Positions 8,395-36,978 of a stretch of 36,978 nucleotides of DNA are shown piece after piece (positions within the stretch are counted from its first letter, which is position 1; every line of letters begins with the position of its first letter). Under the pieces are notes generated by a model that saw nothing but the letters and a program-made list of their open reading frames with translations, searched no databases and was not told the DNA's origin. Origin of the DNA: a virus; the IMG/VR virus record IMGVR_UViG_3300035698_007976, positions 1-36,978 of that record; one strand, 5' to 3'. The translations under genes were made by a program, and so were the position numbers.

Positions 8395-8395
8395 T
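8390..8395 (+). promoter_or_regulatory. TATAAT at leaderless spacing from ATG 8402
   Basis: Perfect TATAAT ends exactly 6 bases before ATG 8402 and overlaps the TAA stop of the previous gene. With the last T at -7, the A of the ATG is base +1, the classic leaderless layout. There is no Shine-Dalgarno sequence before this ATG, which fits. Confidence 0.55.
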
Positions 8396-8401
8396 AGTAA
8401 A

Positions 8402-9639: not shown

Positions 9640-9972
9640 ATGGCAGCTTTAGTGCCTTCGTTATTGTATATAGGCAATGACACAATTGGTTCAATTTACG
9701 ACTCTCCCGAAGCGGCAGGGAGCTATGCTATAATTAAGTCAATCAATGGAACAAATACCTCTAACGCAACAACAACATTTTCTTTACATATTCTTGTTGG
9801 TGGTGCGGAGGCAGCAAACTCTAACAAGATATTAAACGAGGCAGAATTGACAGTTGGAAACACCCTAGCTTATGACACTTCGATTGTTGTGCCGGCAGAC
9901 TCTAGTCTTTATATTACTCAGCCAGGTAACGCAGTTACAGTTACTATCAGTGGGGTAGAGTATGTCGCTTAG
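9640..9972 (+). CDS. Small beta-sandwich tail protein, paralogue of the protein at 2647
   Basis: 110 residues: SYAIIKSINGTNTSNATTTF, then SLHILVGG, then SLYITQPGNAVTVTISGVEY. The I-x-x-I-x-x-x-N-T-S-x-A-T-x-T-x-x-L-H pattern is typical of small phage proteins built of one beta sandwich on the tail or baseplate. It has a strong ribosome site, AGGAGGT at 9625-9631, 8 bases before the ATG and overlapping the previous stop. Its last 11 bases overlap the start of the 3007-aa gene, so the two are probably translationally coupled and the proteins may interact. Confidence 0.6.
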   Translation: MAALVPSLLYIGNDTIGSIYDSPEAAGSYAIIKSINGTNTSNATTTFSLHILVGGAEAANSNKILNEAELTVGNTLAYDTSIVVPADSSLYITQPGNAVTVTISGVEYVA

Positions 9973-12900
9973 ATATCTTAAGGACTCCGCCGAAGAGGGT
10001 AAAAACGAAGTTTCACCTATTGCAACCTTTGTTGATCCAGTTAGCAAGATTCGCGTCTCTCAGCCAGAGAACCTTATTGATACAGACTTTGAGTATGGCC
10101 TTCAGGAGACAAAGTGGGAGACACTTGAACGAGTAAACAATATTCCAACATTTTTTGCAAGACCAGGAGACCCACCTATTGATGTTTCTATCGTTACCGC
10201 AACTGTTGGTTCATCTAGAGTTGTAGTAACAACAAACACAGATCACGGACTTGTTGTTGGTTCTCCACTAATTGTTCAGGGTGTAGATTCTTTTAGTGCT
10301 AATGGTGCATTTGTTGTAGACAACGTAATTAATGATAAAGAATTTACCTATGTTTGTAAAGAGGTACAGACCAGGCCAGGCGCTTCGGAGGGCAGCTTCT
10401 TCAATATTATAAAAGAAGAAACAGTGATATATATTGGTAGACTTTACCAAGGGACACAGGCAAAGCTAGATGTGTTAGATTCGATCACCACCGATGGCCT
10501 AGACCCATCAAGACTTACTGTAAAAACGCCACATCCACACGGATTCTCTGAAGGAACCAGGTTTGTATTGAGCAACAGCGTTGGTGGTAAGACATACAAG
10601 TTTGACGCCTCTCTAATAGACCCCTCTGACTTTGAAAACTTAACAACTCCAGAAATAGACTCTTATACTCAAATAAAAGAAGCATACACTTATCAAGACT
10701 GGGACGGTGCTTATAGTGCAAAGTTTACGTCTGATGACGTAGACGTATATTATAATACAATAAACGTTCCAAATCATCCGTTTAATAACGGAGACATGGT
10801 TATGTATATTCCAGCAGTAGATGTAGAAACAGACAGCCAGACCGCTGACGAGGGCAATATCCATACAGATAGTGCAATGGGTAATGTTGGAAGATATAGA
10901 ACTCCATATTGGGTTGGCGTACTTGACGAAAACACTATTCAGCTTACAGTTTCTGAATTTAATGTAAATTACAGACCACCATCTGTTCACGATATTTCTT
11001 CTATGGGTGATACAAACTTTGGGTATCACCAATTAGCAAAGTGCTACAGAATAGAAGCTTTATACACAGACAGCGTTATGCGGCTAAGGCAGCCGTATCG
11101 TGATACAAACTCTTCAGAAGCACAAGAAGTTTACGTTTTTTCTACCAGTACTGGAATTCAACCAGCAGCAACAACTATGTCTTTTAAAAACTATACCTCT
11201 AATGATGCGTACACTCCAAGATGGTATAAGTTCTACTTAAAGAATTATGATGGAAGCAATGTAACTAACTTACCCACATCTGCAGGAAATGCTATTTTAA
11301 GATTTGGGGCTTTGGGTGTAAACGTCTCAACTGACACAATTACCATTACGCCAGGATCAGATTTTGACCTTTTGGGCTCAATGCCACTAAATGGAAACAC
11401 GGAGGGTGTCTCTAACTCTAGCCTAAGCTCTGGATACTGGCAAACTGGAGACCAGGTTAGACTTTGGAGAAGAAAAGGAGAAACCACACCGGGAAATATT
11501 GGTGAAGGTACCTATTACTATATTCGTGTTATTGACGATAGCAGATTTACTTTGCATACCACAAGGGCCGGAGCCATTGCAAACAACAGCAGGCTAGATA
11601 TTACAAGCACAGGCTCAATAGACCTTGAAATTATTGTTGAAAAACAAAACAGATTCTTTAAACTATATACAGACGCTGCCTTAACTCAGGAGCACGTTCT
11701 TTCAGGCACCGGTATAACCGGTACAACCTGGATTGTACCAGCAACAACGGTTGAGAATAGGTCTTCTATAAACGATCTTACCGTCGGGCAAAATGCATTC
11801 TCTAATCTAAACAGTGGAGACGTTCTTACTGTAGAGTCTTTTGACAATTCTCTTGAAACAGACGTTCCTGTTCCTCAAACAAGGGTAAGCTCAACTACCT
11901 ACGAAGATGTTTATCTTTACCCCGCTATCAACCTTAATGTTGATAGCCCACTAATTTATCCAAGATCTGGAAGAACTCTGTACTACATTCCAAATGGTAC
12001 AAAAATGAAACACCAGACCAGACCAGCTTCTATGATTGTTAACTGCCAGTCTATAAACGTCTCAAACAGGCAGTGGACTACAATTAGTAGTGGAGACGAG
12101 CACTACTTTACACATGGCTTTAAAAACGGAGACAAGGTTACCTGGAAACAGATTCCTTCCATTATTAGCTTTAACGCTAGAGACGTTAACATTAACAATG
12201 GTCGGATTTCTTTATGGAACGGTTATGGAGATACTAGGAATGGTGACAGGGTTCGAGTAAAGAAGGCCGGAGCAATCACTGTGCTCCCAGCCGGTTTAGA
12301 CGAAGAAACCGATTATTTCTTAAGAAGAATCACCACAAACGTTCTTACCCTGCACACAACAGAAGCAGATGCAAACTCAGGAGCAAACCCAGTAACGATA
12401 ACCTCAAGGGGAATGGGTAACTGTACATTAATTCATCAGGAAAACCTACCAGATGTTCTAAGGAACATAGAAGATCAGGAGGCATACTTTAGATTTGATT
12501 CAAATAGAGTATTTAGACTTTATGACACCAGGGAAAACGCTATTATCGGAGGTGCCACGGGACTTATTGAGTTAACCCCAAGGGGTGGTTGGGCAGAATT
12601 TAGAAGTGTCCTGGATGAAACCACTGGACTTTTCTATGCACCAAACCACTATTATGAATTTGCTCAAAGCGCTGCAACTGTAGATACAGCGACCGACATT
12701 ATTACTACCCCAACACCACACGGTTTTCACACCGGAGAGCAGCTATATTATGTAGTTCAAGAAAACACACCAATCACTGGGCTTTCAAATCAAACCTGGT
12801 ACTTTCCAAATGTAATTGACGAGACAAGCTTTACATTGCACTCAAGCAGGGCTGACGCAAGAAACGGTGTGAGCAAGAGAGACCTTTCCGGTACCCCAAT

Positions 12901-15900
12901 CGGTAACGCCACACTTACTAGATTTTACGGTCTTGACATTCAGGGAGACCTTACTCAAATAAACACAACAAACGAAACAATTACTTTTGAATTTAATCAC
13001 GGATTTGAGACAGGAGACAACGTTTCTTTCCGGAGCCTTAGCGGATCAATTAGTGGACTTTCTAACAGACTTCAGTATTTTGTAAATAAAATTAGCGATA
13101 CAACTGTGGCATTTTATTTTTGTAGGGCTCACGCCATTGCAGATACAAACAGAGTAAACTTGACCGGTGCATCGGGCTGGCACGCAGTTAAAAAGGTAGA
13201 AAAGTTACCAGAAGATGTTAACTTTTACTTTAGAGATATCAGCAGTGATAATATCTTTAGAATTTATAGGACAAGGGACGAAGCGATCAGAAATGTAATG
13301 GAGCTTGACATGCGCAGACCTCCAGACAATTCCCACACAGTTACAAACCTAAGCATTCGGTGGACCGGTAGCGCAATTTCAACATTTATCCCAGTCAATG
13401 CTTGGGGTCAGATTAGAAGTGTTAATAACTACGGTGCTAACTATTTCAACACTGATTACAATAATCAATTTAAAACGGGACAGCAGGTTCGAGTTGTTCG
13501 GCTACCACAATTTGGTAACGAAAATCCACAATTTAAGCATGGTTCACTTCACTATATTAGGCACATATCCAACACAATTTTGGCATTCCACAGAACCTAC
13601 GAAGGGGCCATGAACAACGTGACCTCCGACAGGGTTGATATTTATAGTGGTGAAGTTGGATGGTTTATTGAGGGTGTTGGCTTACCATCGGGTATTGGTG
13701 TTGGAACAAGTTTGGTAATTGAAAAGCCAACTCCTACAAGCATTAGGTTCAGAGAAAACAGCTCTTCGGGAAGAATTCGAAGAATTCGACCAACAAGAGA
13801 TGCCTTATATTCTAGCATCAGGTTTAGCAGAAGAGCAGCAACACAAAGCTCCAACACATTTTTTGTAAATTCACACGGACTAATTGAGAACACTCCGCTA
13901 ATATACAACTCTGGACCGTTTGGCGCACCGGACTCAGAGCCTCAGATTACCAACAACAGTACATACTACGTTTCTTCTCCAACAAATGATAGGTTTAGGA
14001 TTTCTACAAACGAAGACTCAGAAACAAAAACAATTACTCTAACCGGTAATGCTGTAGACCTTGTTGGCTCTTTCTTTAGATCCGACGAGCTTGGTCTAAC
14101 AAGAACTTGCCCAAACCAGGCCTCTGGATCTTTTGTAAACCTTACTACAGACGTAATCACCACAAGTATCGTCCATGGATTTTCTACCGGGGACAGGGTA
14201 ACCTACTACGCTCTACCAGAGTCCACAACAAACTTTGGTACGCCGATCAGCGGCTTGACTAGCGAAAATGATTACTATGTCAGGAGAACTGGAACCGCAA
14301 GCTTTCAACTACACAACACAGCAGACGACGCCCTGAATGATATAAATAGGATTGACTTTACGGGTTACGGTACCGGACAAGGACTATTCTCAAGAGATAA
14401 CTTCGTTACCGGAGAATCGGTATTAATTAGTTCGACCTCCCCAATATCTGGCCTTTCTTCAGGATCTGTTTACTACATTAAAACGCTAAGCCCACAGACA
14501 TTTGCTCTATATTACACAAAATCAGAAGCCGAAGCCGGTATTTTTAATCAAACCGGAGACTCTTATTCAGACCTCAGAGCCCCAATCCTTTCATTTGTTG
14601 AGGGAACGTCTCTTTCTCTTAGAAGAAAAGAGTTTGTAAATCTTTTAACTGCTGCGACAGGAATTCAAGAGCTTAGCAACGTAGCCCAGAACGCCGTTGA
14701 CGGTATTTACGATTTAGATGTTAAGGTTGGTGGCCCAGCGTCCACAGAATTTACACTAACACCAACAAACGCAGTTCTTAGCCCCAGATCGATAACATTT
14801 AACCCCTATGATGATTTTAGTTCAGGGTTCAATGCAATTCGTTACGAAAACCACAAGCTATATAATGGTGCTGAAATTATTTATAATCAATCATCAGAGA
14901 TATCTCTGGAACAAAACACCGACGGGATTAATGAGTCTACTGGCGTATTTACGATACCATCCCACGGCTTGATAACCGAACAAGAGCTTGTTTATATTGT
15001 AGAAAGCCCATCACAAGAAATTCCAGGATTACAGAATAACGTTTCTTATTATGTAAACGTTATAAGTTCCGACACTTTTTCTCTGCACACAAGCTCTTCA
15101 GACGCAGCATCAGACACAGATAGAGTAAAAGTTTGGGGAATTGAGAGCAACATAATTGAGACACTGGAGTCTACATTTATTAATGATACGCTCGATCTTA
15201 TTACTACCACAGCAGATCATAATCTTTCTACAGGCCAGGCTGTAGTATTTAACTCTGTAGATCCACCAACCGGAGTTACCTCCGGAGATACTTATTATGT
15301 TAGAGTTTTTGACGCAGACCAGTTCTACCTTCACGAAACATATGAAGACTCTTTGGTCGAAGCAAATACCATAGGCCTGCTTACAGCAGGTAGCGGAACC
15401 CACTATATAGATGTTATTGACGAAGAGGTAATAATAGGGTATGGCGAAACAGAAGACTATGGAACAGTAACCCTTAGCGCATTTTCTACGCTAGAAAGGA
15501 TATCAGGTCTAGAGAATAACAATGTTTACTATGTTATAAGAATCAGTAAGGACTGGTTTACTGTAGCATCCACTAGACAGAACGCTAACCTAGGGAACTC
15601 CATCAACATCGGCGCGCAGCTAGCCGATGAAGGATCTTTGGGCTCAGAGGAAAATCATTCTTTCTTAACATATAACGTAGGTGCCGAGGTGCTCGGCCCA
15701 GGAACAGTTACTACCACGCTGGGCTCAAACATTCTTAGCGGTATCAATACTAACTTCTTTAACCTGTTTAAAAACGGTGATCTCTTTAAAATCTTTATTA
15801 CTCAGGATGAAGATGTTTTAACACTTTCTCAGACCAACAGCGCTGTTAATAGAGAAATCAGTTTCACTCAAAACGCTAGCACCGTTAACACCACAACAAA

Positions 15901-18900
15901 CATTATTACAACCCCTACCCACAACTACTTTACAGGAGATTATGTTGTTTATACAGCAGACACTCCTGCCGGAAATATAACCTCTGGCCAGGGGTATTAC
16001 GTAAGAATAAATCAAACAACGCCGGTCAATGCTACAACTTTTACTTTGCATGAAACAAAACAAGATGCTTTTGATAATCTAAACATAGTAAACATAACCA
16101 GCTCAGGTTCTGGAGCCGCTATCTTTACTCAGCAAGATCAGTTCTATTCTCCAACGCACACTTACACAGATGGTCAGACAACTTCTTACACATCTTCAGA
16201 AATTATGTCAACACTAATAGACGGAAGACTTTACTACATTGGAAGAAATTCCAACATTAGAGAGCTTTTCTCTACAAATATTGCAACAAACGATCGTGTC
16301 ACTACGAATGCCGTTCATGGACTTGCAACAGGAGATGCCGTCAGGTTTGAATCGGCAGTATCACCAGAACCACTGGTCTCCGGTCAAGAATATTTTATTA
16401 GAACAACTAGCACAAGCGCCTTCTATCTTTATAACAATAGGGCCGACTCTCTGTCCGACTCTAATAGAGTAGATATTCTTACTACTGGATCTGGCACACA
16501 CAAATTTGTTCAAACAGAAAAATCTAACACCTTTAGATTCTATCCTAGTTATGACGAAGCCATTGCAGCAGCCGGAACACAAGATGGCGTACAGGTCGAG
16601 CTGGTAAGTACTGCAGGAAATGCTGTAGTGACTAGCAAGTATGCCGGAGCAGTTTTTGAGTCAAAGGTTCTTGGCGTTAGATCTGCTACTGGAATTGTTC
16701 TTGAAGACGAAATCCCAGAATTTGCTTCAGACGATATTACCCCGATTGGAACTCAGTCCGGATTCCAGTATGCCCTAGTTACCTCTTTGTTTGTAAAGGC
16801 AGACGGGTTTGCCCTTCACAGGCCATTTGATGGCGGTGTTGAGCTGACTCCATCACTAAATCCAGACTCTTCGATCATTAGACAAACTCGCAGATACTTC
16901 CGATACCAGTCCGGTAAGGGTATTCAGGTTTCTTATGGTATTAACTTTAATGCGCCAAAACAAATTGAAGCATTTACTGTTGACATCAATACTGGAATTG
17001 CAACTATTAAAACAAGATACCCAAATAAGGTGACAGACCAATTGTCAATAACAACAGAGGGGGCTAGCGATACAAACCTTGGAACTGCCAGAACATTCTT
17101 GCAAAATTCTACAAATGTTGATGTTGATGCAAATACAATTAACATTGGATCACAGCAGTCATTCGTAAACGGAGAGGCTGTTTTGTATCAGACACCAGGA
17201 GTAGAGCTTGGCGGAATTGAGTCAAACGTAAAGTATTGGGTTAGAAACGCGGGTGGCACTAGGTACTACATTTATGCATCTCTTTCCGATGCACTAGTCG
17301 GAGGAGAAGATGGAAGGATCGACATCACGATGCCGACAGAGGGCGACGCAGCCACTCTAACTCCAGTTAATAGCTGGATTGGCACATTCGGAGTAACAGA
17401 GGTTGTTAATGACGATACTTTCAAGGTTCTGCTAGATGGTATTCCTCAATCAGGCTCGTCTTCAGGATTCTCGCAGTTTACCCCGGCATCTTGGTCAGGA
17501 TCCTTACTTAGGTGTGGAATTTTTGATGATCAGAATGGCCTATTCTTTGAATATGATGGTCAGCAGCTATATGCTTGCAGAAGAAGCAGTGTTGAGCAAA
17601 TTTCTGGTACGGTCACAGCAACATTTAACTCCTCTCTGATTGTCGGTGAAAACACAAAATTTATTAGCCAATTAATTGCCGGAGACAAGGTTGTTATACG
17701 AGGACAAAGCTACAAGGTTGTGCACATTGCTAGCGAAAACTCTTTGTCGATACAGCCCGCATATAGGGGTGTCACAAGAGGAAACGTTGTTGTAACCAAG
17801 ACAGTGGACACCAAAACTCCACAAAACCAATGGAACCTGGATAAGGCAGACGGAACTGGTCCGTCCGGGCTCATACTTAACCTTACTAAGATGCAGATGG
17901 CTTACATAGACTACTCGTGGTACGGTGCCGGAAAAGTTCGTTTTGGTTTCAAAGCTAAAAACGGTGAGGTTCTGTATTTCCACGAATATGTTCACAACAA
18001 TCAGTTTACAGAAGCCTATATGAGATCTGGCAACTTGCCAGCAAGATACGAGGTCTTGAACCTTGCAAACCCAACTTACAGCCCAACAATCGCCCACTGG
18101 GGAACGTCTGTCATTATGGATGGTAGATTCGACAATGACGACGCATACTTCTTTACGGCATCCGGCTCTACGCTTTCTTTCTCTAACACAGCAGAACAAC
18201 AGACTTTTCAAGGTAGAATCTCTCAAACTAATGCTATCTTTAATACCAGAATAGACGGTGTATTTACTCCGGTTTACTTTGTAAATGCTATAGACTCCGT
18301 TGCAGTTAGAAGCATTAGGCCAGAAACAGAAATTTCTGGATTATACATCCAAGCCGGAACAAAAACACTATTCCAGCCACAGAGTATCGGTGGAAACAGG
18401 GCTCGTATATATATTGATAAGCAACCTACTGGAACGTCGGGGTCAGATACTACATACAACTATGGTCCTCTAGCAGATGCAATCCCAACGCTGTTTCCTC
18501 TAGTTAGTGTTCGCCTAGGGCCAGCGGTTGACAATTCTTTGGTAGGAGCCATTGGCCTAAGAGAAATCATAAATAGGATGCAGTTAAACTTGAAAAACGT
18601 CGGTATTCTTACGACTCACGATGTTGAAATTAAACTTATTCTAAATGGAAACACAGACAACCTTTTGTTTACAAATATTGCCCAGCCTTCACTTTCTCAG
18701 ATTATTCAACACGGAAAGGGTGACACAATTAGTGGTGGTGTAGAGCTTTACACATTCAGGGTCAGTGGTGCATCTAGCGCAACGGCTTCGATTGCTCAAG
18801 CAACAAACATTGACCTTGCCGACATCATCGAGCTAGGAAACGCTATTCAGGGTGGTGACGGAATTTTCCCAGATGGACCAGACCTTCTGACAATTTCTGC

Positions 18901-18985
18901 CTCTGTTATTGATACCGCTCTCATCGGTGCCGCTACCCCATTCCGAGTGGGTGGACGTATTTCCTGGACAGAATCTCAGGCCTAG
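9962..18985 (+). CDS. Giant repeat-containing virion protein, 3007 aa
   Basis: The N-terminus (ENLIDTDFEYGLQETKWETL, then ERVNNIPTF) is a domain I recognise from aquatic phage structural proteins. From about residue 85 to 2470 there are at least a dozen diverged copies of an 80-90 residue module: a strand with D-x-I-x-T, H-G-F/L, S/A-T-G-D, about 10-20 residues, G-L-S/T-x-x-x-x-Y-Y-V, F-x-L-H-x-T, D-A, R-V-D-I, then G-S-G. Clear copies start near residues 904, 999, 1394, 1657, 1741, 1975, 2107 and 2386. At about 2620-2698 is a conserved block (QNQWNLDKADGTGPSGLI, then DYSWYGAGKVRFGF, then EAYMRSGNLPARYE), also known from large aquatic phage tail proteins. No protease or hydrolase motif is seen. 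It is likely a long tail-tip or side-fibre scaffold that carries the smaller adhesins. The start overlaps the previous gene by 11 bases. Confidence 0.8.
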   Translation: MSLRYLKDSAEEGKNEVSPIATFVDPVSKIRVSQPENLIDTDFEYGLQETKWETLERVNNIPTFFARPGDPPIDVSIVTATVGSSRVVVTTNTDHGLVVGSPLIVQGVDSFSANGAFVVDNVINDKEFTYVCKEVQTRPGASEGSFFNIIKEETVIYIGRLYQGTQAKLDVLDSITTDGLDPSRLTVKTPHPHGFSEGTRFVLSNSVGGKTYKFDASLIDPSDFENLTTPEIDSYTQIKEAYTYQDWDGAYSAKFTSDDVDVYYNTINVPNHPFNNGDMVMYIPAVDVETDSQTADEGNIHTDSAMGNVGRYRTPYWVGVLDENTIQLTVSEFNVNYRPPSVHDISSMGDTNFGYHQLAKCYRIEALYTDSVMRLRQPYRDTNSSEAQEVYVFSTSTGIQPAATTMSFKNYTSNDAYTPRWYKFYLKNYDGSNVTNLPTSAGNAILRFGALGVNVSTDTITITPGSDFDLLGSMPLNGNTEGVSNSSLSSGYWQTGDQVRLWRRKGETTPGNIGEGTYYYIRVIDDSRFTLHTTRAGAIANNSRLDITSTGSIDLEIIVEKQNRFFKLYTDAALTQEHVLSGTGITGTTWIVPATTVENRSSINDLTVGQNAFSNLNSGDVLTVESFDNSLETDVPVPQTRVSSTTYEDVYLYPAINLNVDSPLIYPRSGRTLYYIPNGTKMKHQTRPASMIVNCQSINVSNRQWTTISSGDEHYFTHGFKNGDKVTWKQIPSIISFNARDVNINNGRISLWNGYGDTRNGDRVRVKKAGAITVLPAGLDEETDYFLRRITTNVLTLHTTEADANSGANPVTITSRGMGNCTLIHQENLPDVLRNIEDQEAYFRFDSNRVFRLYDTRENAIIGGATGLIELTPRGGWAEFRSVLDETTGLFYAPNHYYEFAQSAATVDTATDIITTPTPHGFHTGEQLYYVVQENTPITGLSNQTWYFPNVIDETSFTLHSSRADARNGVSKRDLSGTPIGNATLTRFYGLDIQGDLTQINTTNETITFEFNHGFETGDNVSFRSLSGSISGLSNRLQYFVNKISDTTVAFYFCRAHAIADTNRVNLTGASGWHAVKKVEKLPEDVNFYFRDISSDNIFRIYRTRDEAIRNVMELDMRRPPDNSHTVTNLSIRWTGSAISTFIPVNAWGQIRSVNNYGANYFNTDYNNQFKTGQQVRVVRLPQFGNENPQFKHGSLHYIRHISNTILAFHRTYEGAMNNVTSDRVDIYSGEVGWFIEGVGLPSGIGVGTSLVIEKPTPTSIRFRENSSSGRIRRIRPTRDALYSSIRFSRRAATQSSNTFFVNSHGLIENTPLIYNSGPFGAPDSEPQITNNSTYYVSSPTNDRFRISTNEDSETKTITLTGNAVDLVGSFFRSDELGLTRTCPNQASGSFVNLTTDVITTSIVHGFSTGDRVTYYALPESTTNFGTPISGLTSENDYYVRRTGTASFQLHNTADDALNDINRIDFTGYGTGQGLFSRDNFVTGESVLISSTSPISGLSSGSVYYIKTLSPQTFALYYTKSEAEAGIFNQTGDSYSDLRAPILSFVEGTSLSLRRKEFVNLLTAATGIQELSNVAQNAVDGIYDLDVKVGGPASTEFTLTPTNAVLSPRSITFNPYDDFSSGFNAIRYENHKLYNGAEIIYNQSSEISLEQNTDGINESTGVFTIPSHGLITEQELVYIVESPSQEIPGLQNNVSYYVNVISSDTFSLHTSSSDAASDTDRVKVWGIESNIIETLESTFINDTLDLITTTADHNLSTGQAVVFNSVDPPTGVTSGDTYYVRVFDADQFYLHETYEDSLVEANTIGLLTAGSGTHYIDVIDEEVIIGYGETEDYGTVTLSAFSTLERISGLENNNVYYVIRISKDWFTVASTRQNANLGNSINIGAQLADEGSLGSEENHSFLTYNVGAEVLGPGTVTTTLGSNILSGINTNFFNLFKNGDLFKIFITQDEDVLTLSQTNSAVNREISFTQNASTVNTTTNIITTPTHNYFTGDYVVYTADTPAGNITSGQGYYVRINQTTPVNATTFTLHETKQDAFDNLNIVNITSSGSGAAIFTQQDQFYSPTHTYTDGQTTSYTSSEIMSTLIDGRLYYIGRNSNIRELFSTNIATNDRVTTNAVHGLATGDAVRFESAVSPEPLVSGQEYFIRTTSTSAFYLYNNRADSLSDSNRVDILTTGSGTHKFVQTEKSNTFRFYPSYDEAIAAAGTQDGVQVELVSTAGNAVVTSKYAGAVFESKVLGVRSATGIVLEDEIPEFASDDITPIGTQSGFQYALVTSLFVKADGFALHRPFDGGVELTPSLNPDSSIIRQTRRYFRYQSGKGIQVSYGINFNAPKQIEAFTVDINTGIATIKTRYPNKVTDQLSITTEGASDTNLGTARTFLQNSTNVDVDANTINIGSQQSFVNGEAVLYQTPGVELGGIESNVKYWVRNAGGTRYYIYASLSDALVGGEDGRIDITMPTEGDAATLTPVNSWIGTFGVTEVVNDDTFKVLLDGIPQSGSSSGFSQFTPASWSGSLLRCGIFDDQNGLFFEYDGQQLYACRRSSVEQISGTVTATFNSSLIVGENTKFISQLIAGDKVVIRGQSYKVVHIASENSLSIQPAYRGVTRGNVVVTKTVDTKTPQNQWNLDKADGTGPSGLILNLTKMQMAYIDYSWYGAGKVRFGFKAKNGEVLYFHEYVHNNQFTEAYMRSGNLPARYEVLNLANPTYSPTIAHWGTSVIMDGRFDNDDAYFFTASGSTLSFSNTAEQQTFQGRISQTNAIFNTRIDGVFTPVYFVNAIDSVAVRSIRPETEISGLYIQAGTKTLFQPQSIGGNRARIYIDKQPTGTSGSDTTYNYGPLADAIPTLFPLVSVRLGPAVDNSLVGAIGLREIINRMQLNLKNVGILTTHDVEIKLILNGNTDNLLFTNIAQPSLSQIIQHGKGDTISGGVELYTFRVSGASSATASIAQATNIDLADIIELGNAIQGGDGIFPDGPDLLTISASVIDTALIGAATPFRVGGRISWTESQA
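12671..17392 (+). repeat. Diverged repeat array within the 3007-aa protein gene
   Basis: This is the densest part of the module array. Copies are recognisable at protein level by H-G-F/L-x-T-G-D, Y-Y-V and F-x-L-H anchors but have little DNA identity, so they are ancient and not prone to slippage. Spacing varies because some copies are partial (for example two half modules after residues 1430 and 1790) and non-repeat inserts lie between others. Confidence 0.7.
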
Positions 18986-22000: not shown

Positions 22001-22600
22001 GAAGTTCAGTCTGCCAATCAGTTCTTTAAATTTTATGCTGTTTCCACCCACCCAGACGGCTTGAGGGGAAAAATATATTCACAAAACACATCTACTGGAA
22101 GAATAACGGATCGTGTAACCTTTTATTGGAATGGAAATCTGGTAAGAGAGCCATCCATACAAGCTGGCTCCTGGTCAATTTTGGGAATAGGCTTTACGGA
22201 TAACCTAATAATGAACAATGTTGCAGGAGCAATTAGAATTACTGGTCCAGTTTCTGTAGATAGTATCTCTCACTATCAAGCTAGCAGCCTTGACCAAGTT
22301 CGTAATCAGATAACCAGACAGTGGTTCGGTGTAGAAAGAATAGCCGGAATAGACATCGCATGGAGATACTGGGTGGAAGGGCAGGATAATCCAGAAGGCA
22401 ACAGGCCCTATACCTGGTCACAGGTTTTGGTTGTTACACCATCAGATTATTATGGGGTAGACCCAGCAGAAATATACAAGTCTTTTGTTGGAACAAATAA
22501 AATTGTTGCTGGAGATGATGTTAAGCTAAAACTAGAAACATATAAGTATTCTGTTTATCAAGGTCTTGACTGGACTACTTCTACTATCACTCCTGTATAA
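19013..22600 (+). CDS. Large minor tail protein with LamG/concanavalin-like domain
   Basis: 1195 residues. A jelly-roll region at about residues 270-410 (GRYQDFTLEFWLRINVSC, then FRPMLVQLRIVTNSATLI, then INGEEVLSVEFD) fits the LamG/concanavalin-A family, which binds carbohydrates. A second similar block near 510-700 includes TSFKIEDQ-like strands, N-G-A-Y-I-D-Y-T and Y-F-L-G-N-K-G. The conserved-looking C-terminus (ITRQWFGVERIAGIDIAW, then RYWVEGQDNPEGNRPYTW, then LETYKYSVYQGLDW) may be the part that docks to the tail. The N-terminus (YSEKVFAEQPIALWSLDDP) is typical of LamG-type minor tail proteins. The gene has its own GGAG ribosome site. It lies directly upstream of the head module, so it marks the end of the fibre cassette. 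Confidence 0.7.
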   Translation: MSISSNLYSEKVFAEQPIALWSLDDPADYVSLVSETQRDLSNSSVWTVSNGTLGVVTNIIGEPFPESVISSIAANVPEEDPDITTVTATGVVPYSSFNEDLKTFSLGAFFYSPSPFLSSVSIGYKYLDAETSSYVETFKDFDISVFNRWFFVSETFTLPPNEEDVSIVLKLGYLPGASDPASYTFLVNGLTAGQWSEEFQATSLGVELEAIPSTIALSETFGYPAAAYGLQELNGYYLGQSNSLLAKNGGVPLVYGASNNTTILPGSGPSLIVPGNGFLGELGRYQDFTLEFWLRINVSCTTPKRIVGPIGSDDGIYVDGPFIKIKIDDVYGSYFVGEWFRPMLVQLRIVTNSATLIINGEEVLSVEFDTRSLSLPGKNNSVGKDQDWIGFYAYEDTVPFEIDSVGIYSYSVPTLVAKRRWVYGQGVEYPEKINTAYNGVSTFIDYPFANYSNNYNFPDLGKWSQGLMDNVSVDNNVLTPPEHPLATLKFNNKTVDQWYEDSSASMSEEDQSISLRPNSSWLGTEGCIIFDTLNFLSQDTKAVYGIFESKVGDNGKQTLFKIEDQITKNYLIVELNGAYIDYTLVFNGSSTRLYRANGHQPGDLFLAGISLVKFSNKFGGNAAYFLGNKGQLKVYAGGSEDFSNTFNGEILKVAFSTERNYGKFEELYNDSGVIREYEDVFSMYDQEIDYDGDDPLSTNGSLFNDLYVDGGDPWSRYTADPMFEPASYGLVGRKKFGAARLDIEVDSYWEDYVPLTYLAKNIVDDNGVEEYGLDFVQMNINYPAVQKFSEGFYDTSGQGVRTYVSFQYLSEGANKPVSGFKNITRMPSNGVVEPGSDWLVTKYEVVDGVILYLPQGVDIKSLALVSHIEMKVDGIIENPIKIRRIQLASQSLSQRVPSPVGTRFGKKIYPFKRSGLYFDYKAKNPFRIYKDSTPYLYLTGQSGIKPVGNFEQSTSTSRGLSIPINPEKANNFETVALNMAIRFELDAFPSSPIEIFEVQSANQFFKFYAVSTHPDGLRGKIYSQNTSTGRITDRVTFYWNGNLVREPSIQAGSWSILGIGFTDNLIMNNVAGAIRITGPVSVDSISHYQASSLDQVRNQITRQWFGVERIAGIDIAWRYWVEGQDNPEGNRPYTWSQVLVVTPSDYYGVDPAEIYKSFVGTNKIVAGDDVKLKLETYKYSVYQGLDWTTSTITPV

Positions 22601-22611
22601 TATGGTATACT
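22594..22611 (+). promoter_or_regulatory. Overlapping -10 boxes TATAAT and TGGTATACT at leaderless spacing
   Basis: TATAAT (22596-22601) overlaps the TAA stop of the LamG-type gene. A second box, TATACT (22606-22611) preceded by TGG, ends 7 bases before ATG 22619. Transcription from the second box would start at or one base before the ATG, giving a leaderless mRNA. There is no Shine-Dalgarno sequence here. Confidence 0.5.
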
Positions 22612-22618
22612 TGTGGTT

Positions 22619-22999
22619 ATGAAGAAGCCAAAACCACGTTTTCCAGGTCAAGTCGGTGACACAAAGGTACAAGTTATCGAAGAAAAGTTTTCTAATTTTG
22701 GAACCTACGTTTGGCACAAGCCAAACGGAAAAGCTTTTACTGACGGCCAAGGGAACGCCCTGTCCATAGAGTCAATGAGGGATGACCCCTCAAGGGTCAA
22801 AGAGCTGAAAGATGCTGCACAGTACTGGGGCCAGTCCGAAGGTAAGGCCGTTTTTTATCCAAATATGCGAAAGATATCTGACGAGCAGCATAGCGAGCAA
22901 GTAGACAGAATGACACAAGGCCTTATCCCGAACATGAACGATCTTGGCGCAGTTATTGCGGCCAAAAAAACTCTTAATGCATACGGAGATGAGGGCTAG
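22619..22999 (+). CDS. Conserved hypothetical protein upstream of portal
   Basis: 126 residues from ATG 22619; a GTG at 22613 would add two residues. No ribosome site precedes either start, and the promoter-like box at 22606 favours the ATG as a leaderless start. Visible features are a basic start (MKKPKPRFPGQ), a middle block (GTYVWHKPNGKAFTDGQGNA, then LSIESMRDDP) and an end block (QVDRMTQGLIPNMNDLGAVI, then AAKKT). I recall similar short proteins next to portal genes in actinobacteriophages but know no function for them. The stop overlaps the portal start as TAGTG. A packaging or portal-associated role is possible from position alone. Confidence 0.6.
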   Translation: MKKPKPRFPGQVGDTKVQVIEEKFSNFGTYVWHKPNGKAFTDGQGNALSIESMRDDPSRVKELKDAAQYWGQSEGKAVFYPNMRKISDEQHSEQVDRMTQGLIPNMNDLGAVIAAKKTLNAYGDEG

Positions 23000-30292: not shown

Positions 30293-30919
30293 ATGGCATA
30301 TTCACGTGGTTCCAGTTCTAACATTATTGTTGGTGCTGCAGCGCTGTTTACATACGAGAGCGGACTTCTAACCGAAGCCGACCTTCCAGAATTTGCGGAA
30401 GACGTATCGTTCAAGACTACCCTGTCTAACGATGCAGACTTCCGTAATGTCGGATACACCAGTAACGGTTTGGATATTGAATTCCAGCCCGATTTTGGTG
30501 AGGTTCAGGTTGACCAGTTGCTCGACGTCGCCAAACTGTACAAGCAAGGTATGCAGGTTAGCCTGAATACAGCTTTTGCAGAGTCCACACTAGAGAACCT
30601 TTTGTTCTCTCTCGCTGGTAAGGACACAGACCTTACCACCGTAGGTGGAAACCCAACTCTAAACCTCTCAGCTGGTGACATTGGAGAATGTCCCGTTGAG
30701 CGTGGTTTGATTGCTGTTGGGCCAGGTACCGGTGACTGTGCTATTGGTCAGGACCTAGAACGTGTTTACGTTGCATACCGTGCGCTCTCAATTGAGAACG
30801 TTACAGTATCTGCAAAGCGTGACGAACCCACAATGTTTGAGGTTTCGTTCCGTCTACTTCCAAATGACGCCGCGTCATATGGTAAGATCGTAGACCGTAC
30901 AGTTCCTGCTGGTAGCTAG
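30293..30919 (+). CDS. Major tail tube protein
   Basis: 208 residues. Beta-rich with VGAAALFTYESG, then FAEDVSFKTTLSNDADFRNV, then GYTSNGLDIEFQPDFGEVQV, and a final ISKRDEP-like AKRDEPTMFEVSFRLLPND strand pair, as in siphovirus tube proteins. It forms stacked rings along the tail. All eight arginines are CGT, while the preceding gene has only one CGN in nine, which fits strong expression. It stands alone between its own promoter-like box with a 47-base leader and its own terminator, as expected for the most abundant tail protein. No sheath gene is adjacent, suggesting a non-contractile tail. Confidence 0.85.
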   Translation: MAYSRGSSSNIIVGAAALFTYESGLLTEADLPEFAEDVSFKTTLSNDADFRNVGYTSNGLDIEFQPDFGEVQVDQLLDVAKLYKQGMQVSLNTAFAESTLENLLFSLAGKDTDLTTVGGNPTLNLSAGDIGECPVERGLIAVGPGTGDCAIGQDLERVYVAYRALSIENVTVSAKRDEPTMFEVSFRLLPNDAASYGKIVDRTVPAGS

Positions 30920-30940
30920 TTACTAAAGCTAAAAGGATTT

Positions 30941-30969
30941 GCCCAGGCTAACGCCTGGGCATTTCTTTT
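30941..30969 (+). terminator. Rho-independent terminator after the tail tube gene
   Basis: GCCCAGGC (30941-30948) and GCCTGGGC (30953-30960) form a perfect 8-bp GC-rich stem around TAAC, followed by ATTTCTTTT. The loop is the same C(UAAC)G as in the capsid terminator. It should separate the abundant tube mRNA from the chaperone genes. Confidence 0.9.
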
Positions 30970-30977
30970 GCTACAAT
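30969..30977 (+). promoter_or_regulatory. Extended -10 (TGCTACAAT) at leaderless spacing
   Basis: TGC plus TACAAT follows the T-tail of the terminator. The last T (30977) is exactly 6 bases before ATG 30984, so the A of ATG would be +1. No Shine-Dalgarno sequence is present, which fits a leaderless transcript. Confidence 0.55.
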
Positions 30978-30983
30978 TAGTTA

Positions 30984-31676
30984 ATGGCAACAAAAATTTA
31001 TGATACTGGTTTGGTTGAGTTTTTCGACGGTACTGTTTTAGAGCTAAAACCAATCAAGATAAAATACCTCAGAGAGTTTATGGATGAATTTCAAAAACTA
31101 AAAATGGCTACAAGCGATGACGAAGCTTTTGTGGTTTTGACTAAATGTGCATCTATATCTATGAAAGAGTTTAAAAAAGAGTTTTCGGATCCTAGCGTTC
31201 TTGAAGATAATATGGACGTCTCTACGTTATATGAAATACTAGACCTTACGGCTGGTATAAAGATAGATAAAGAAAAAAACGAAGAGGGGGAGGTCAAGAA
31301 ACAAGCCGAAGAAAGCGGATCGTCTTGGGACAACCTAGACTTGGCAGAACTAGAAGCAGAAACGTTTTTGATTGGTATCTGGAAAGATTATGAAGAGCTA
31401 GAGCTTTCTCTTTCTATGCCAGAACTTCTGGCGACCTTGAATTCTAAAAGAGATCTTGAGTATAACGAAAAGAAGTTTTTGGCAGCAATGCAGGGCGTTG
31501 ACTTAGATAAACAATCTGGAAAACAAAACGAATGGGAAAAAATGAAGGCAAAGGTTTTTAGCAAGGGCATTACAGACAACCCGAATGATATTGTTGCACT
31601 TCAAGGAGTGAACGCTCAGCAAGCTGGATTTGGCATAGGCCTAGGTCTTGGGTACGAAGACATGCGTAAAAAATAA
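30984..31676 (+). CDS. Tail assembly chaperone, long form (G-T-like)
   Basis: 230 residues. The N-terminal about 95 residues (DGTVLELKPIKIKYLREFMD, then TLYEILDLTAGIKI) match the short chaperone at 31745. The rest (WDNLDLAELEAETFLIGIWK, then MPELLATLNSKRDLEYNEKK, then AMQGVDLDK and AGFGIGLGLGYED) is the T-like extension that in many phages is reached only by a -1 programmed frameshift. Here both parts are in one frame. A slippery heptamer A-AAA-AAC (31274-31280) sits in frame at the junction. The protein should bind the tape measure and recruit tube subunits. It has no ribosome site and a leaderless-type promoter, so lower output than the short form is likely. Confidence 0.8.
   Translation: MATKIYDTGLVEFFDGTVLELKPIKIKYLREFMDEFQKLKMATSDDEAFVVLTKCASISMKEFKKEFSDPSVLEDNMDVSTLYEILDLTAGIKIDKEKNEEGEVKKQAEESGSSWDNLDLAELEAETFLIGIWKDYEELELSLSMPELLATLNSKRDLEYNEKKFLAAMQGVDLDKQSGKQNEWEKMKAKVFSKGITDNPNDIVALQGVNAQQAGFGIGLGLGYEDMRKK
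31274..31280 (+). other. Slippery heptamer A-AAA-AAC in the chaperone gene
   Basis: In the reading frame of the 30984 gene the codons are GAA AAA AAC, so the heptamer is in phase for -1 slippage. It lies where the short-form domain ends and the extension begins. A -1 shift here would lead to an Arg-rich tail of about 38 codons before a stop, which does not look like a real domain, so it may be a relic or chance in A-rich DNA. Confidence 0.4.
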
Positions 31677-31685
31677 GGCTCTCTG

Positions 31686-31694
31686 TGTTATAAT
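31686..31694 (+). promoter_or_regulatory. Extended -10 (TGTTATAAT) before the short chaperone
   Basis: TGT plus TATAAT lies 10 bases after the long chaperone's stop. The predicted start near A31701 gives a leader of about 44 bases, ending with AAGGAGG (31729-31735), 9 bases before ATG 31745. No -35 is seen. Confidence 0.55.
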
Positions 31695-31744
31695 TATATA
31701 ACCTGACAAAATAGCAATAAGCCACTACAAGGAGGAAACAACAA

Positions 31745-32059
31745 ATGGCAACAACAGTTAATGAAGAAAAAGAAATTAGCCTTATTGATGGCACGAAGCT
31801 TACGCTACGTCCATTGAAGATCTCTCTGCTTCGTTCTTTTATGAAGAAGTTTGAGGGCATTGCAGAGATAGCAGCAGATAATGACAAGTCAATGAATCTG
31901 CTTATGGAATGCGTTCAGATTGCAATGCAACAGTATAAGCCAGACATTGCTGGTGATCTAGCAGCTCTTGAAGAGAATCTAGACCTACCAACAGTTTATA
32001 GAATCGTAGAAGAGGCTTCCGGTATTAAGCTCTCTGATACATCTATTCTAAACGTATAG
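31745..32059 (+). CDS. Tail assembly chaperone, short form (G-like)
   Basis: 104 residues: DGTKLTLRPLKISLLRSFMK, then LEENLDLPTVYRIVEEASGI, then KLSDTSILNV. It aligns along its whole length with the first about 95 residues of the long chaperone (shared DGT-x-L-x-L-x-P-x-K-I-x-x-L-R-x-F-M and LE-x-N-x-D-x-x-T-x-Y-x-I). It has no extension and no slippery site at its end. Its strong AAGGAGG ribosome site and own promoter-like box suggest it is made in excess of the long form, as gpG is over gpGT in lambda. It precedes the tape measure gene by 11 bases. Confidence 0.78.
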   Translation: MATTVNEEKEISLIDGTKLTLRPLKISLLRSFMKKFEGIAEIAADNDKSMNLLMECVQIAMQQYKPDIAGDLAALEENLDLPTVYRIVEEASGIKLSDTSILNV

Positions 32060-32070
32060 GAGCCTAGTGA

Positions 32071-35000
32071 ATGGCTGATTTCCAGTCGAATATTAATGTA
32101 AACATTGATACCGCCAACGCTTTGGCAAGTATCAAAGCTTTGCAACGACAAATATCGGTCTTTCACCAGGAAATGGCACAAGGCGGGGCGGCCGCTCAGG
32201 CCTCCTCCGCCAAAATGCAGCAAACGCTTATTAATGGCATAAACGCTAGCAAGGGCTTTAGTGCTGAACTCACAACAATTTCTAGTAGTACTCAGTCTTT
32301 TACTAATGCATTAGAAAAAAACAAGCTGTCCATGGGGCAGTACTTTCGCTACTCTATGGGGGCAACCAAGACATTTGGAAGCTTCTTTAAAACAGAGTTT
32401 AACACAATTAGCAAGGTTGCTCGTGAAAGAGTCAAAGATTTACAAACACAGTACGTAAAGCTTGGCAGAGATGGAAACGGTGCGCTTCAGGCAATTAAGG
32501 TTAGGCCTCTTACTCTAGACATGAAAAGTCTGGGAACTCAGACTGCCATGGCCGCTCAAAAGCAGCAAATTTTTAATCAATTAATTAAACAGGGATCAAC
32601 AAATCTTTTAAACTTCGGTAAGAACACTCAGTGGGCCGGTAGGCAGCTTATGGTTGGCTTTACCATTCCGCTGGCAATGATGGGTGCTATTGCAATAAAA
32701 GAGTTCAAAAAAATTGAAGCACAAGTAATTAAGTTTAAACGAGTATACGGAGACATGTTCAGCACAGACGCTGATTCAGAGGAGGCGCTAGAGAATGTTA
32801 GAAGACTAGCTGACGAGTTTACAAAATATGGAATTGCGGTAGAAAAAACTATTGGACTTGCGGCAAAAGTTGCTCAGATGGGAAATGTCGGAACAGCCTT
32901 AGAACAACAGGTTATCCAGGCAACCAGGCTTTCAGTTCTTGGTGGTCTGGACCAAGAGGAGGCTCTGGATACAACAATCTCTCTTACCAATGCTTTTAAG
33001 GTAGAGGTAGAAGATCTTACAAACAAGATTAACTTCTTGAATGCAGCAGAAAACCAAACAGTACTTTCCATAGAAGATTTTAACACCGCCATTCCACTAG
33101 CTGGTTCCGTTGTCAAATCGCTGGGTGGCGAGGTAGAGGATCTAGCATTCTTCCTAACTGCCATGAGAGAAGGTGGCATTAGCGCTAGCCAAGGAGCAAA
33201 CGCACTGAAGACAAGCTTGGCAAGGCTCATTGCCCCATCCGAAGCAGCAAAACAAAGACTTTCTGAAATGGGAATCAATGTTCTGGGAATCGTTGAGGCT
33301 AATGCTGGAAACTTAAGGGGCACAGTCACCTCTCTAGCATACGCCCTAGAAAACCTAGACCCACTTTCAAAAGCAAGAGCAATTGAGCAGCTTTTTGGAA
33401 AATTCCAGTTTGCCAGGATGTCTACGCTTTTTGCAAACATTGTAGACGAGGGAAGTCAGGCAAACAAGGTTCTTGGGCTAACCGTAAATAGTGCGGAAGA
33501 GCTTGCGATTCTTGCCGAGAGAGAACTTGGCAAGGTAGAGGATTCTTCCGCAACTAAGTTCAGTAAAAGTCTAGAGAAGCTAAAAACCTCCCTGGCACCA
33601 ATTGGTGAAACGTTCTTAAAGGCAATAACCCCAATTGTAGAGTGGGTTGCAAACTTCATTAAAAAGTTTGACGAAATGGGTGAAGGAACTAAAAACTTCC
33701 TTGTTGGCCTTGCTGCTATTGGTGGAGCTATAGCCCCAGTTCTTTTGATGGCAATAGGTTTGGTCGCTAACGGTATAGCTAACCTAATCAAGTTCTTCCA
33801 GCTGATGAGCAACTATTTTTCCGGAGCCTCTGCGTCTAGCAAAACACTCGGAGAGGGGGTAAGCTATTTAACTCAGCAACAAGTAGAGCAGCTTACTGTT
33901 GCGGCGTCATTAGATCAAGTTCATAATAACCTAACACAAAGATTTACGGCAGAAACTCTTGCTGTAGACGGTCTAAGTCAGGCCTACGGAAGAGCCATTA
34001 CGACACAGAACGCATATCTAGCCTCCGCCGCAGCGTCTGCTTCTGCCCCTATCGCAGGATCATCTCGATCCGCTGCTCCCACAACAAATACATCTAGATA
34101 CAACCCCTTCTTGCCACCAAAAGGATATGCCGACGGCATTCTTTCTGTACCAGGCCCAGCCGGTGCAGGAGATGTAGTCGCCTCAATGCTTTCTCCGGGA
34201 GAAGCCGTAATCCCAGCAGACAGAGCAAAACAGTATGCTCCATTTATTAAAGGAATTATTGCCGGAAAAATTCCAGGCTTTGTAGAGGGGACACCCGGCG
34301 CCGCTGCCGCTGTGCAGACTGGTATCGGAGGAGAGAATTTTAGCTTTTCGTCACAAGCACAGGCAGACCGTGTTGCTGGACTTTACCGGGATATGGGGGA
34401 ATATGGAAAAATTCTTTTAGAAACTCTGAAAAAGTCAGCAGATCAATCGGGAGTTATTGCAGATGATTTTAGTAAAATTAAACGTGATGTAGCAGAAACA
34501 GCCGTATCACAGGGAGATTGGGACGTTCCTGGTCTATCTGCGACCAATACACAAAAAAGTCATCTTACAATGCCATTCGAGGGGGATAAAAGAACAGCGG
34601 CCCTGGGTAGTGTCGGCTTTGACAAGTTGCCAGCCGACCTGCAGAGAAACACATCGGCTGTAAGCAATCTAGTGGCAGAGCTTCCAGCCATAATAAATCA
34701 AGGACTTATAGAAAAAGTCGGTCCCGATGGTAAAGTCACCGGAGGAGTAAACTCAAGCCTGTTTGAAAAAACTTGGGAAAGTAGACCAGACAAGCTAGAT
34801 GCAACGGCTAAACAGGGTGGCCTTAATATGGCTGATCCGAAGAATGTCCAGGCCACTAGAGCTATGGACGCTGATATTCTCAAAGAAACCTCAAGGATTG
34901 CCAAAGAAAGAACGGCAGCCGGAGAAGAGGTCTTGATAACAGACAGAATACTTGCCGAAGCTACTGAAAATATAATTGCTAAAAATGAAGAGCTGGAGGG

Positions 35001-36978
35001 GGCCACCGGAGACCTTGCCAGGGTAATGCGAGAAAGAGCCAACAGCTTAGGCGAGGCCAGGTCTAACCCCGGAAAAGGTTTGGTTCAAAAATATATGGCC
35101 GAGGCCGAGGCCGGCAGGCCAGGGCTTGTCAGAACCGGCACAGGCGCAGAGCTTGGATTTAGAACCGGAGAAGTTGATGATCAGGGTAGTCCAAAAGTTG
35201 TTAGTAGAGTGGGAAGAACCGGAGAAGTCAGTAGGGCTTATGGAAGCAATGTCAGTATGCCTGGCGGTTATACAAGACAGAAAAATGTGTCACAAAAGGT
35301 TGTTGCAGATGCACTAGATGATTCCGAACTTCGTAATGAGACAATGGCAGCAGCTTTAGATGATCCACATATTAGCTCTACCAAAAATAGCAGAAAGAGC
35401 CCACATCCAAATGCAGCAATAGACGGTGCCGATGATGCAAGAGCATACAGTGAAGCAAGAGACAAGGTGCTTAGGGATCCTTATACTTCTGGCGGAGCGC
35501 CAAAACTTCCACCACCACCAGGCAGTCCGCTTGCTCCACCAACTGCTCCTCAAGTAAGTACACCAGCCCAATCGTCAAGAAAACAAAGAATTTTAGATGC
35601 AATTGGCGACAGCTCTCCAGGAAAAGCTGTAGGTAAATTTTTAGCAAAACAAAGTGGAGTAGCCGTCACCGACAGCAAGGGCCAAGTGTTCTACGATCCA
35701 AACGAAGACAAGAGTACTTGGGCTGGACAAATGGAGGCACAAAGAAAACAAGAAGAACTTTTGTTTAATCAAAAAAGACAACAAATGGTGGAAGAGTCCG
35801 CCACCAATCAAGAACTTAAAGCCGCAGGGCAAGCTGTAGAGCAGGGTGGCCAAAAGCTGGAAGTCGCCGGAGACAGTTTGCAGAATGCCCAGCAGGCAAA
35901 AGGTGGGGCTAATGCAAACGTCGCACCAGGAGGCAAACGCCGGGGCGGAAATCTTGCTGGTGGTGTTTTTGCCATGGGTTCTGCAGCAATGATGACGCAA
36001 ATGGCCGGTGGACCAGTGGGAGAAGCCGCCGGGGCAGTGGCCGCACCTTTAATGGCTCTTGGTGGAATAATGCCAATGCTGAGCAAGCTACCGCCACAAG
36101 CTCAGGCCGCAGCTCTTGCTCTTGCGGCAGTTGGATATGCCACGTATAAACTTATAACACATTTTGGAAATGTTTCCAAAAAGACTGCAGAGCTGGAAAC
36201 AGCCCTAGGCACCGGAACAAAGGCTGTTCAAAAATTTGCAGAGTTTTCCGGAAAAGTTACTTCTAAAGAAGTTATGGATAGAAGAAGAGAAGGTGGAATC
36301 GACCCCTTCCAGGTACAGCCAGGAAAAAAGACAACCGGTCAGGGATTCTTTGAGGGTGACGAAGGCACGGCCTTTGCTGAATCAGTAAAACAAGGTATTT
36401 CAACTTTAGGAACAGACCAAACAATGTCAAAGGTGGCATTGCAACTTGGCCAGGCTGTTGCCCAAGGTGCACTAGATACAAGCTCAGCAATGAGCATAGC
36501 TTCCGAAATTGGCACTCAGCTTGGAGATAGGTCTTTTGCAATTGGAGTTAATAGCCAGCTTCTTTCTTTGATAGATCCAAGCGGAAAAGATCTGCTTGTG
36601 GATCCAATAATTCTTCAAGCTAAAATTTTAGTAGAAGGCCAAGAAAACATAGATCATCTTCTTGGTGAAGGGCCAATGAATTATATAGAAGGCTTGGAAT
36701 ATTATGACGCAAGACTTACCGACGTAATAGAAGCCCACGGCTTCTTGAAATCAGTCTTTACGCAGGGGGATGCCTGGAGCGCTTGGTGGCTGGGCATAAC
36801 TGGTATAGGCGTTGCCGAGCAAAATATTGAAAGAATGACTCAGATCGTAACACAGTCTAGGGACCAACTCCAATCATATGGAGCGGCACTAGATACGGTA
36901 AGCATAGAGTATGAAAAAAGAATTGCGGATGCCACAGAAAGAGGGTGGTCTCAAACAGAAATAAGTGCTTTGGCCGAA
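32071..36978 (+). CDS. Tail tape measure protein (5' part, runs off the window)
   Basis: At least 1636 residues, open to the last base. ATG 32071 has AGGAG 8 bases upstream. Residues about 1-140 are helical. About 180-520 form the phage minor tail/tape measure domain (QWAGRQLMVGFTIPLAMMGA, then EALDTTISLTNAFKVEVEDL, then SLGGEVEDLAFFLTAMREGG). Hydrophobic helices lie at about 543-575, 1313-1340 and 1347-1363, as expected for a protein that enters the host membrane. Residues about 685-740 hold GILSVPGPAGAGDVVASMLS, then PGEAVIPADRAKQYAPF and GKIPGF, a motif common in tape measure proteins. A Pro-rich linker (LPPPPGSPLAPPTAP) is near 1145-1166. It sets tail length, and both chaperones precede it. 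No wall-cutting domain is seen in the visible part. Confidence 0.93.
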   Translation, partial: MADFQSNINVNIDTANALASIKALQRQISVFHQEMAQGGAAAQASSAKMQQTLINGINASKGFSAELTTISSSTQSFTNALEKNKLSMGQYFRYSMGATKTFGSFFKTEFNTISKVARERVKDLQTQYVKLGRDGNGALQAIKVRPLTLDMKSLGTQTAMAAQKQQIFNQLIKQGSTNLLNFGKNTQWAGRQLMVGFTIPLAMMGAIAIKEFKKIEAQVIKFKRVYGDMFSTDADSEEALENVRRLADEFTKYGIAVEKTIGLAAKVAQMGNVGTALEQQVIQATRLSVLGGLDQEEALDTTISLTNAFKVEVEDLTNKINFLNAAENQTVLSIEDFNTAIPLAGSVVKSLGGEVEDLAFFLTAMREGGISASQGANALKTSLARLIAPSEAAKQRLSEMGINVLGIVEANAGNLRGTVTSLAYALENLDPLSKARAIEQLFGKFQFARMSTLFANIVDEGSQANKVLGLTVNSAEELAILAERELGKVEDSSATKFSKSLEKLKTSLAPIGETFLKAITPIVEWVANFIKKFDEMGEGTKNFLVGLAAIGGAIAPVLLMAIGLVANGIANLIKFFQLMSNYFSGASASSKTLGEGVSYLTQQQVEQLTVAASLDQVHNNLTQRFTAETLAVDGLSQAYGRAITTQNAYLASAAASASAPIAGSSRSAAPTTNTSRYNPFLPPKGYADGILSVPGPAGAGDVVASMLSPGEAVIPADRAKQYAPFIKGIIAGKIPGFVEGTPGAAAAVQTGIGGENFSFSSQAQADRVAGLYRDMGEYGKILLETLKKSADQSGVIADDFSKIKRDVAETAVSQGDWDVPGLSATNTQKSHLTMPFEGDKRTAALGSVGFDKLPADLQRNTSAVSNLVAELPAIINQGLIEKVGPDGKVTGGVNSSLFEKTWESRPDKLDATAKQGGLNMADPKNVQATRAMDADILKETSRIAKERTAAGEEVLITDRILAEATENIIAKNEELEGATGDLARVMRERANSLGEARSNPGKGLVQKYMAEAEAGRPGLVRTGTGAELGFRTGEVDDQGSPKVVSRVGRTGEVSRAYGSNVSMPGGYTRQKNVSQKVVADALDDSELRNETMAAALDDPHISSTKNSRKSPHPNAAIDGADDARAYSEARDKVLRDPYTSGGAPKLPPPPGSPLAPPTAPQVSTPAQSSRKQRILDAIGDSSPGKAVGKFLAKQSGVAVTDSKGQVFYDPNEDKSTWAGQMEAQRKQEELLFNQKRQQMVEESATNQELKAAGQAVEQGGQKLEVAGDSLQNAQQAKGGANANVAPGGKRRGGNLAGGVFAMGSAAMMTQMAGGPVGEAAGAVAAPLMALGGIMPMLSKLPPQAQAAALALAAVGYATYKLITHFGNVSKKTAELETALGTGTKAVQKFAEFSGKVTSKEVMDRRREGGIDPFQVQPGKKTTGQGFFEGDEGTAFAESVKQGISTLGTDQTMSKVALQLGQAVAQGALDTSSAMSIASEIGTQLGDRSFAIGVNSQLLSLIDPSGKDLLVDPIILQAKILVEGQENIDHLLGEGPMNYIEGLEYYDARLTDVIEAHGFLKSVFTQGDAWSAWWLGITGIGVAEQNIERMTQIVTQSRDQLQSYGAALDTVSIEYEKRIADATERGWSQTEISALAE

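Follow-up and report, generated by a model that had tools for sequence, protein, structure and literature searches.

In the tail region of an uncultured virus the short (G-like) and long (GT-like) tail assembly chaperones are very probably made from two paralogous genes, which would have arisen by duplication of a frameshifting ancestor and would have their ratio set by initiation. It is also probable, with somewhat less confidence, that the clade to which this virus belongs has replaced the G/GT frameshift with a leaderless promoter for a scarce long form and a Shine-Dalgarno-led promoter for an abundant short form, the ratio again being set by initiation. The DNA analysed here (the window) is the 36,978-base record of this virus, with a G+C content of 42%.

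Results

The tail region of the window runs, on the + strand, from the major tail protein through a 230-aa and a 104-aa protein to the tape measure protein, so that the chaperone pair is flanked by the major tail gene on one side and the tape measure gene on the other, as in G/GT-type loci. The major tail (tube) protein gene (30293..30919) matches phrog_2175 (E 2e-32) and gives weak tail-tube matches, and in Moab, Francob and Wofford the homologous protein carries the annotation 'major tail protein'. The tape measure protein gene (32071..36978) matches phrog_10030 (E 4e-91) and continues past the end of the window. Elsewhere in the window, positions 9962-18985 encode a 3007-aa protein that matches virion structural and baseplate-wedge families.

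Both open reading frames are present as the initial annotation had described them: the long form (30984..31676) is a single continuous frame holding an N domain (residues 1-97), a linker and a T domain (residues 113-230), and the 104-aa short form (31745..32059) is a separate paralogue with the N domain only. The proposed kinship of the two N domains is borne out by BLASTP (35% identity over 96 residues, E 1e-20) and by a profile-profile comparison of 52 long relatives with 67 short or single relatives (probability 100%, E 7.8e-39). The T-like extension belongs to the long protein alone, whose residues 113-230 match the T frame of Streptomyces phages of the family Stanwilliamsviridae (E 7.6e-59). 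The short gene does not shift frame: a hidden T frame 3' of it was sought by BLAST and by profile, and none was found.

From synteny, annotated homologues in Streptomyces phages and weak matches to the known chaperone families GP24_25 and Phage_TAC_19, we identify the 230-aa and 104-aa proteins as probable tail assembly chaperones. In PHROGs the N and T domains are present solely as families of unknown function, and a sequence search of the PDB returned no solved structure related to the chaperone proteins. Median dN/dS values of 0.06 for the long gene and 0.07 for the short show purifying selection on both. In 96% of locus pairs the N domain of the short protein is the better conserved of the two, as would be expected if the short protein were the main tape-measure binder. 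A sequencing or assembly error was considered as the origin of the N-T fusion and rejected, as the open frame also occurs in near-identical contigs from two other samples and is common to 129 distinct long genes. The linkers that join N and T (31280-31330 in the window, and in the long genes of relatives) share the pattern VKxQAxxSGSxW, which exceeds what joining two frames would require.

To place the pair among its relatives, loci were drawn from IMG/VR, queried with the window proteins and with alignments including Streptomyces phages. The best 80 loci of each collection scan were kept, and the counts describe this sample, not nature. N and T profiles were run against 328 sequences, a set that contains the window and some repeated contigs. 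In at least 193 of them a fused N-T gene precedes a separate N gene, and in at least 127, Stanwilliamsviridae of Streptomyces among them, a single N gene precedes a T frame. Eight of the 328 show a partial pattern, five of these ending at contig edges, and the two arrangements were found together in none of the 328. The fusion is uninterrupted in all 193 two-gene loci, which do not show the usual, though not universal, frameshift feature of G/GT chaperones. One-gene frameshift versions, which had been proposed as something to look for in related phages, do occur: T lies in the -1 frame and overlaps the end of N by 31-106 nt in 105 of 105 distinct one-gene loci. The observation of a fused long chaperone paired with a separate short one is confirmed, and the two-gene layout in 193 sequences, the low dN/dS and the geometry of the leaderless promoter make it more than chance.

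The isolated relatives infect Streptomyces, and the host of the window phage may differ. A search of host genome contigs with a window protein gave no match. The T-domain profile matched one 110-kb contig (L328) binned as an uncultured cyanobacterium genome; this may be phage DNA binned with the cyanobacterium, and is too weak a basis for naming a host.

Among the described relatives are the Stanwilliamsviridae phages of Streptomyces (Yaboi, Moab, Braelyn, Francob and Wofford), which carry homologous N and T domains with the same neighbours, annotated as tail assembly chaperones. The promoter and ribosome site of their chaperone gene resemble those of the short gene of the window. They differ from the window in having one N gene with T in an overlapping -1 frame, given as a joined CDS in Yaboi and Francob. 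In Moab, Braelyn and Wofford (L002:2501-3150, L003:2501-3144 and L005:2501-3162) N and T are annotated as two genes; T is in the overlapping -1 frame there too, as in Yaboi and Francob, and these pairs are probably unannotated frameshifts.

The two genes of the window begin in different ways. An extended -10 box, TGC-TACAAT (30969..30977), precedes the long gene, its TACAAT (30972-30977) ending 6 nt 5' of the ATG at 30984, and there is no Shine-Dalgarno sequence. With this spacing the A of the ATG would be the first transcribed base. In bacteria a TANNNT box some 12 bp ahead of the start codon is an accepted sign of a leaderless gene, and actinobacteria have many such genes (PMC3160421). The long form fits the leaderless pattern, for which the -10 box is expected about 10-12 bp ahead of the start and a Shine-Dalgarno is lacking. 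We therefore predict that the long gene is expressed as a leaderless mRNA whose transcription starts at the ATG. The short gene is preceded by a second predicted promoter, the extended -10 box TGT-TATAAT (31686..31694, with TATAAT at 31689-31694) lying 50 nt 5' of its ATG at 31745, and by a Shine-Dalgarno motif, AAGGAGG (31729..31735).

The proposal that the initiation signals differ in this direction holds across the clade. Counts of signals and of slippery sites were made after identical sequences had been collapsed, and related, non-independent sequences remain in them. Among 106 distinct long genes, 97 have an extended -10 box 4-8 nt 5' of the ATG, most of the nine exceptions looking like near variants of the same box, and none has a Shine-Dalgarno. 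In a first set of closer loci the box lies exactly 6 nt 5' of the ATG in 68 of 78 distinct long-gene sequences, and the same feature occurs at 0.42% of other ATGs. The short gene carries an SD-like motif, mostly AAGGAGG, in 105 of 106 distinct genes and an extended -10 box farther 5' in all 106 (24-50 nt in the first set), and is never leaderless. In this the one-gene form resembles the short gene, with a Shine-Dalgarno in 92 of 93, a promoter in 87 of 93 and no leaderless start. The idea that structural genes are commonly leaderless in these phages was considered and rejected, since in the same loci neither the major tail gene nor the tape measure gene shows such a start by this test.

Directly 5' of the long-gene promoter lies a terminator-like hairpin with a T-rich tail (30940..30970, 9-bp stem, dG about -21), and of 107 distinct relatives 89 have such a hairpin before the long gene, with a median dG of -21. 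No terminator was found between the long and short genes in any of the 107, so that transcripts from the long-gene promoter probably continue through the short gene. In one subgroup (L008, L094, L102, L103 and L105) the short-gene leader, between the long and short genes, is conserved over a stretch resembling ACCGTTTATAACGTTATGAAAGG, whose palindromic core lies directly 5' of the ribosome site. Two further genes of the window may be leaderless, with TATACT before 22619 and TATAAT before 8402 (window 22595-22625 and 8385-8410), each box 6-7 nt from the ATG, and several other structural genes in the window seem to carry a -10 box of their own.

The two proteins could instead be ordinary paralogues with different jobs, the short one acting for example as a new tape-measure or head-tail factor, with no selection on their ratio. 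The divergence of the N domains to 35% identity, each with its own clade, is what such a history would leave, but we consider it unlikely. The short gene is like the N part of the one-gene form in length, start signals and sequence, and it occupies the G position. Against the 193 two-gene loci stand no complete regions with the fused gene only. Moreover, TP901-1 with a permanent gpG-gpT fusion makes normal-looking, non-infectious particles (PMC4493119), so that a phage with the fusion needs the short form from elsewhere; in the window the separate paralogue would supply it.

Trees of the N domain, the T domain and the major tail protein bear on how two genes came to replace one; all are unrooted and poorly resolved near the duplication event. 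The N-domain tree groups the long N domains in one clade (99/96) and the short N domains in another (100/99), the latter inside a set that includes one-gene sequences (98/92). The long N domain joins deep, not next to the short, which could mean that the duplication is older or that the branch is fast. A sister relation of long and short is not rejected (p 0.38), nor is a grouping of these two with four nearby one-gene rows (p 0.14). The T-domain tree places the two-gene phages within the diversity of the one-gene phages (58-row set, 96/96), and the major tail protein tree agrees, with a set of 17 holding both forms (100/99). As the two-gene phages nest among one-gene phages, duplication and fusion most likely replaced frameshifting; a single origin of the two-gene state is likely, and the T and major-tail trees are compatible with two or three state changes, so that a second event or a reversal may also have taken place.

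The reverse order, with the two-gene state ancestral and frameshifting arising in the one-gene phages through loss of a copy, would fit unrooted trees and the deep join of the long N domain. It is nevertheless very improbable, as the T and major-tail trees nest the two-gene phages among the one-gene ones, frameshifted chaperones are widespread in long-tailed phages (PMC5009743), and making an overlapping -1 frame from a fused gene would be harder than the reverse.

The two arrangements also differ in their slippery sites. In the one-gene relatives an in-phase C_CCA_AAN, usually C_CCA_AAC or C_CCA_AAT, is found at a conserved Asp-Pro-Asn in 82 of 99 distinct CDSs; in the Yaboi group its place is taken by C_CCG_GAA. 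The two-gene phages have lost this site, which occurs in 1 of 129 distinct long genes and in 1 of 116 short ones. The initial annotation had read an in-phase A_AAA_AAC heptamer at the domain junction of the long gene (31274..31280) as an ancestral frameshift site that had been fused through. We judge it to be a chance match and reject it as a relic: it is unconserved, being present in 2 of 129 distinct long genes, the relatives use the different site C_CCA_AAN, and in-phase A_AAA_AAN in the linker is no commoner than under synonymous codon shuffling (13 observed against 17.3 +/- 3.2). That the long gene still shifts at this heptamer, giving an extra short G-like product that ends at a -1 stop and leaving the separate short gene with another role, is hardly credible even though the heptamer is canonical and in phase and the -1 frame stays open for 39 codons beyond it, since a heptamer so rare and unenriched is one on which the clade as a whole cannot depend, and the -1 tail resembles no family protein.

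Discussion

The arrangement can be read as the outcome of a few steps. The ancestor would have had a single chaperone gene with a -1 frameshift, which was then duplicated. In the upstream copy N and T would have been joined in one frame and the leader lost, so that the -10 box now lies 6 nt from the ATG and the gene would give a leaderless mRNA from its own promoter, placed after a terminator. The downstream copy would have lost T and the slippery site and retained the ancestral-type promoter and Shine-Dalgarno leader. The G:GT ratio would then be set by two initiation steps, not by a slip during elongation, the short gene being transcribed from its own promoter, and probably from the long-gene promoter too, and having a strong ribosome site.

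In lambda the tape measure binds many copies of G and a few of GT, with T recruiting the tube protein, and the G:GT ratio of about 30:1 is critical (PMC5009743). By analogy, many copies of G would coat the tape measure of the window phage and a few of GT would recruit its tube protein. Since each gene has its own promoter, transcription may do as much as translation to set this ratio. Leaderless mRNAs have a low translation efficiency in E. coli and show no overall mRNA:protein difference in M. tuberculosis (PMC3898074); leaderless in actinobacteria need not mean weak, and the type of start alone does not secure the direction of the ratio. We infer that the sign of the effect rests on the entire layout, leaderlessness by itself being insufficient.

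The window locus is like the G/GT loci of lambda and other long-tailed phages in having a short N form and a long N-T form, and in its gene order of major tail protein, chaperones and tape measure. It differs in having two genes and no frameshift where the lambda type has a programmed -1 frameshift, with a predicted leaderless long form and a Shine-Dalgarno-led short form, each under its own promoter. A non-frameshift mechanism is reportedly known for T4-like chaperones, a different phage group from that of the window, to judge by the title of a paper by Vladimirov, Gautam and Davidson (2022, Virology 566:9-15). In the literature searched we found no report of the chaperone family of the window or of a leaderless/SD split of a chaperone pair.

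The authors of PRFect count 342 SEA-PHAGES genomes that lack a joined chaperone gene and have two chaperone genes instead, and suspect that many of these are missed frameshifts (PMC10274946). The present locus is a warning to annotators that an absent chaperone frameshift is not necessarily an annotation error. It also illustrates how a recoding site can disappear, and offers a clean case of duplicated genes that share out leaderless and Shine-Dalgarno-led initiation between them.

Very diverse phages retain the frameshift that gives rise to GT. The present relatives, which share one gene order and either have the slip or lack it, provide a natural experiment on whether it is the slip itself or the ratio that has to be kept. 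The two-gene phages suggest that conservation need extend no further than the two products and their ratio, and that the amount of each chaperone form can be set without a ribosome slip.
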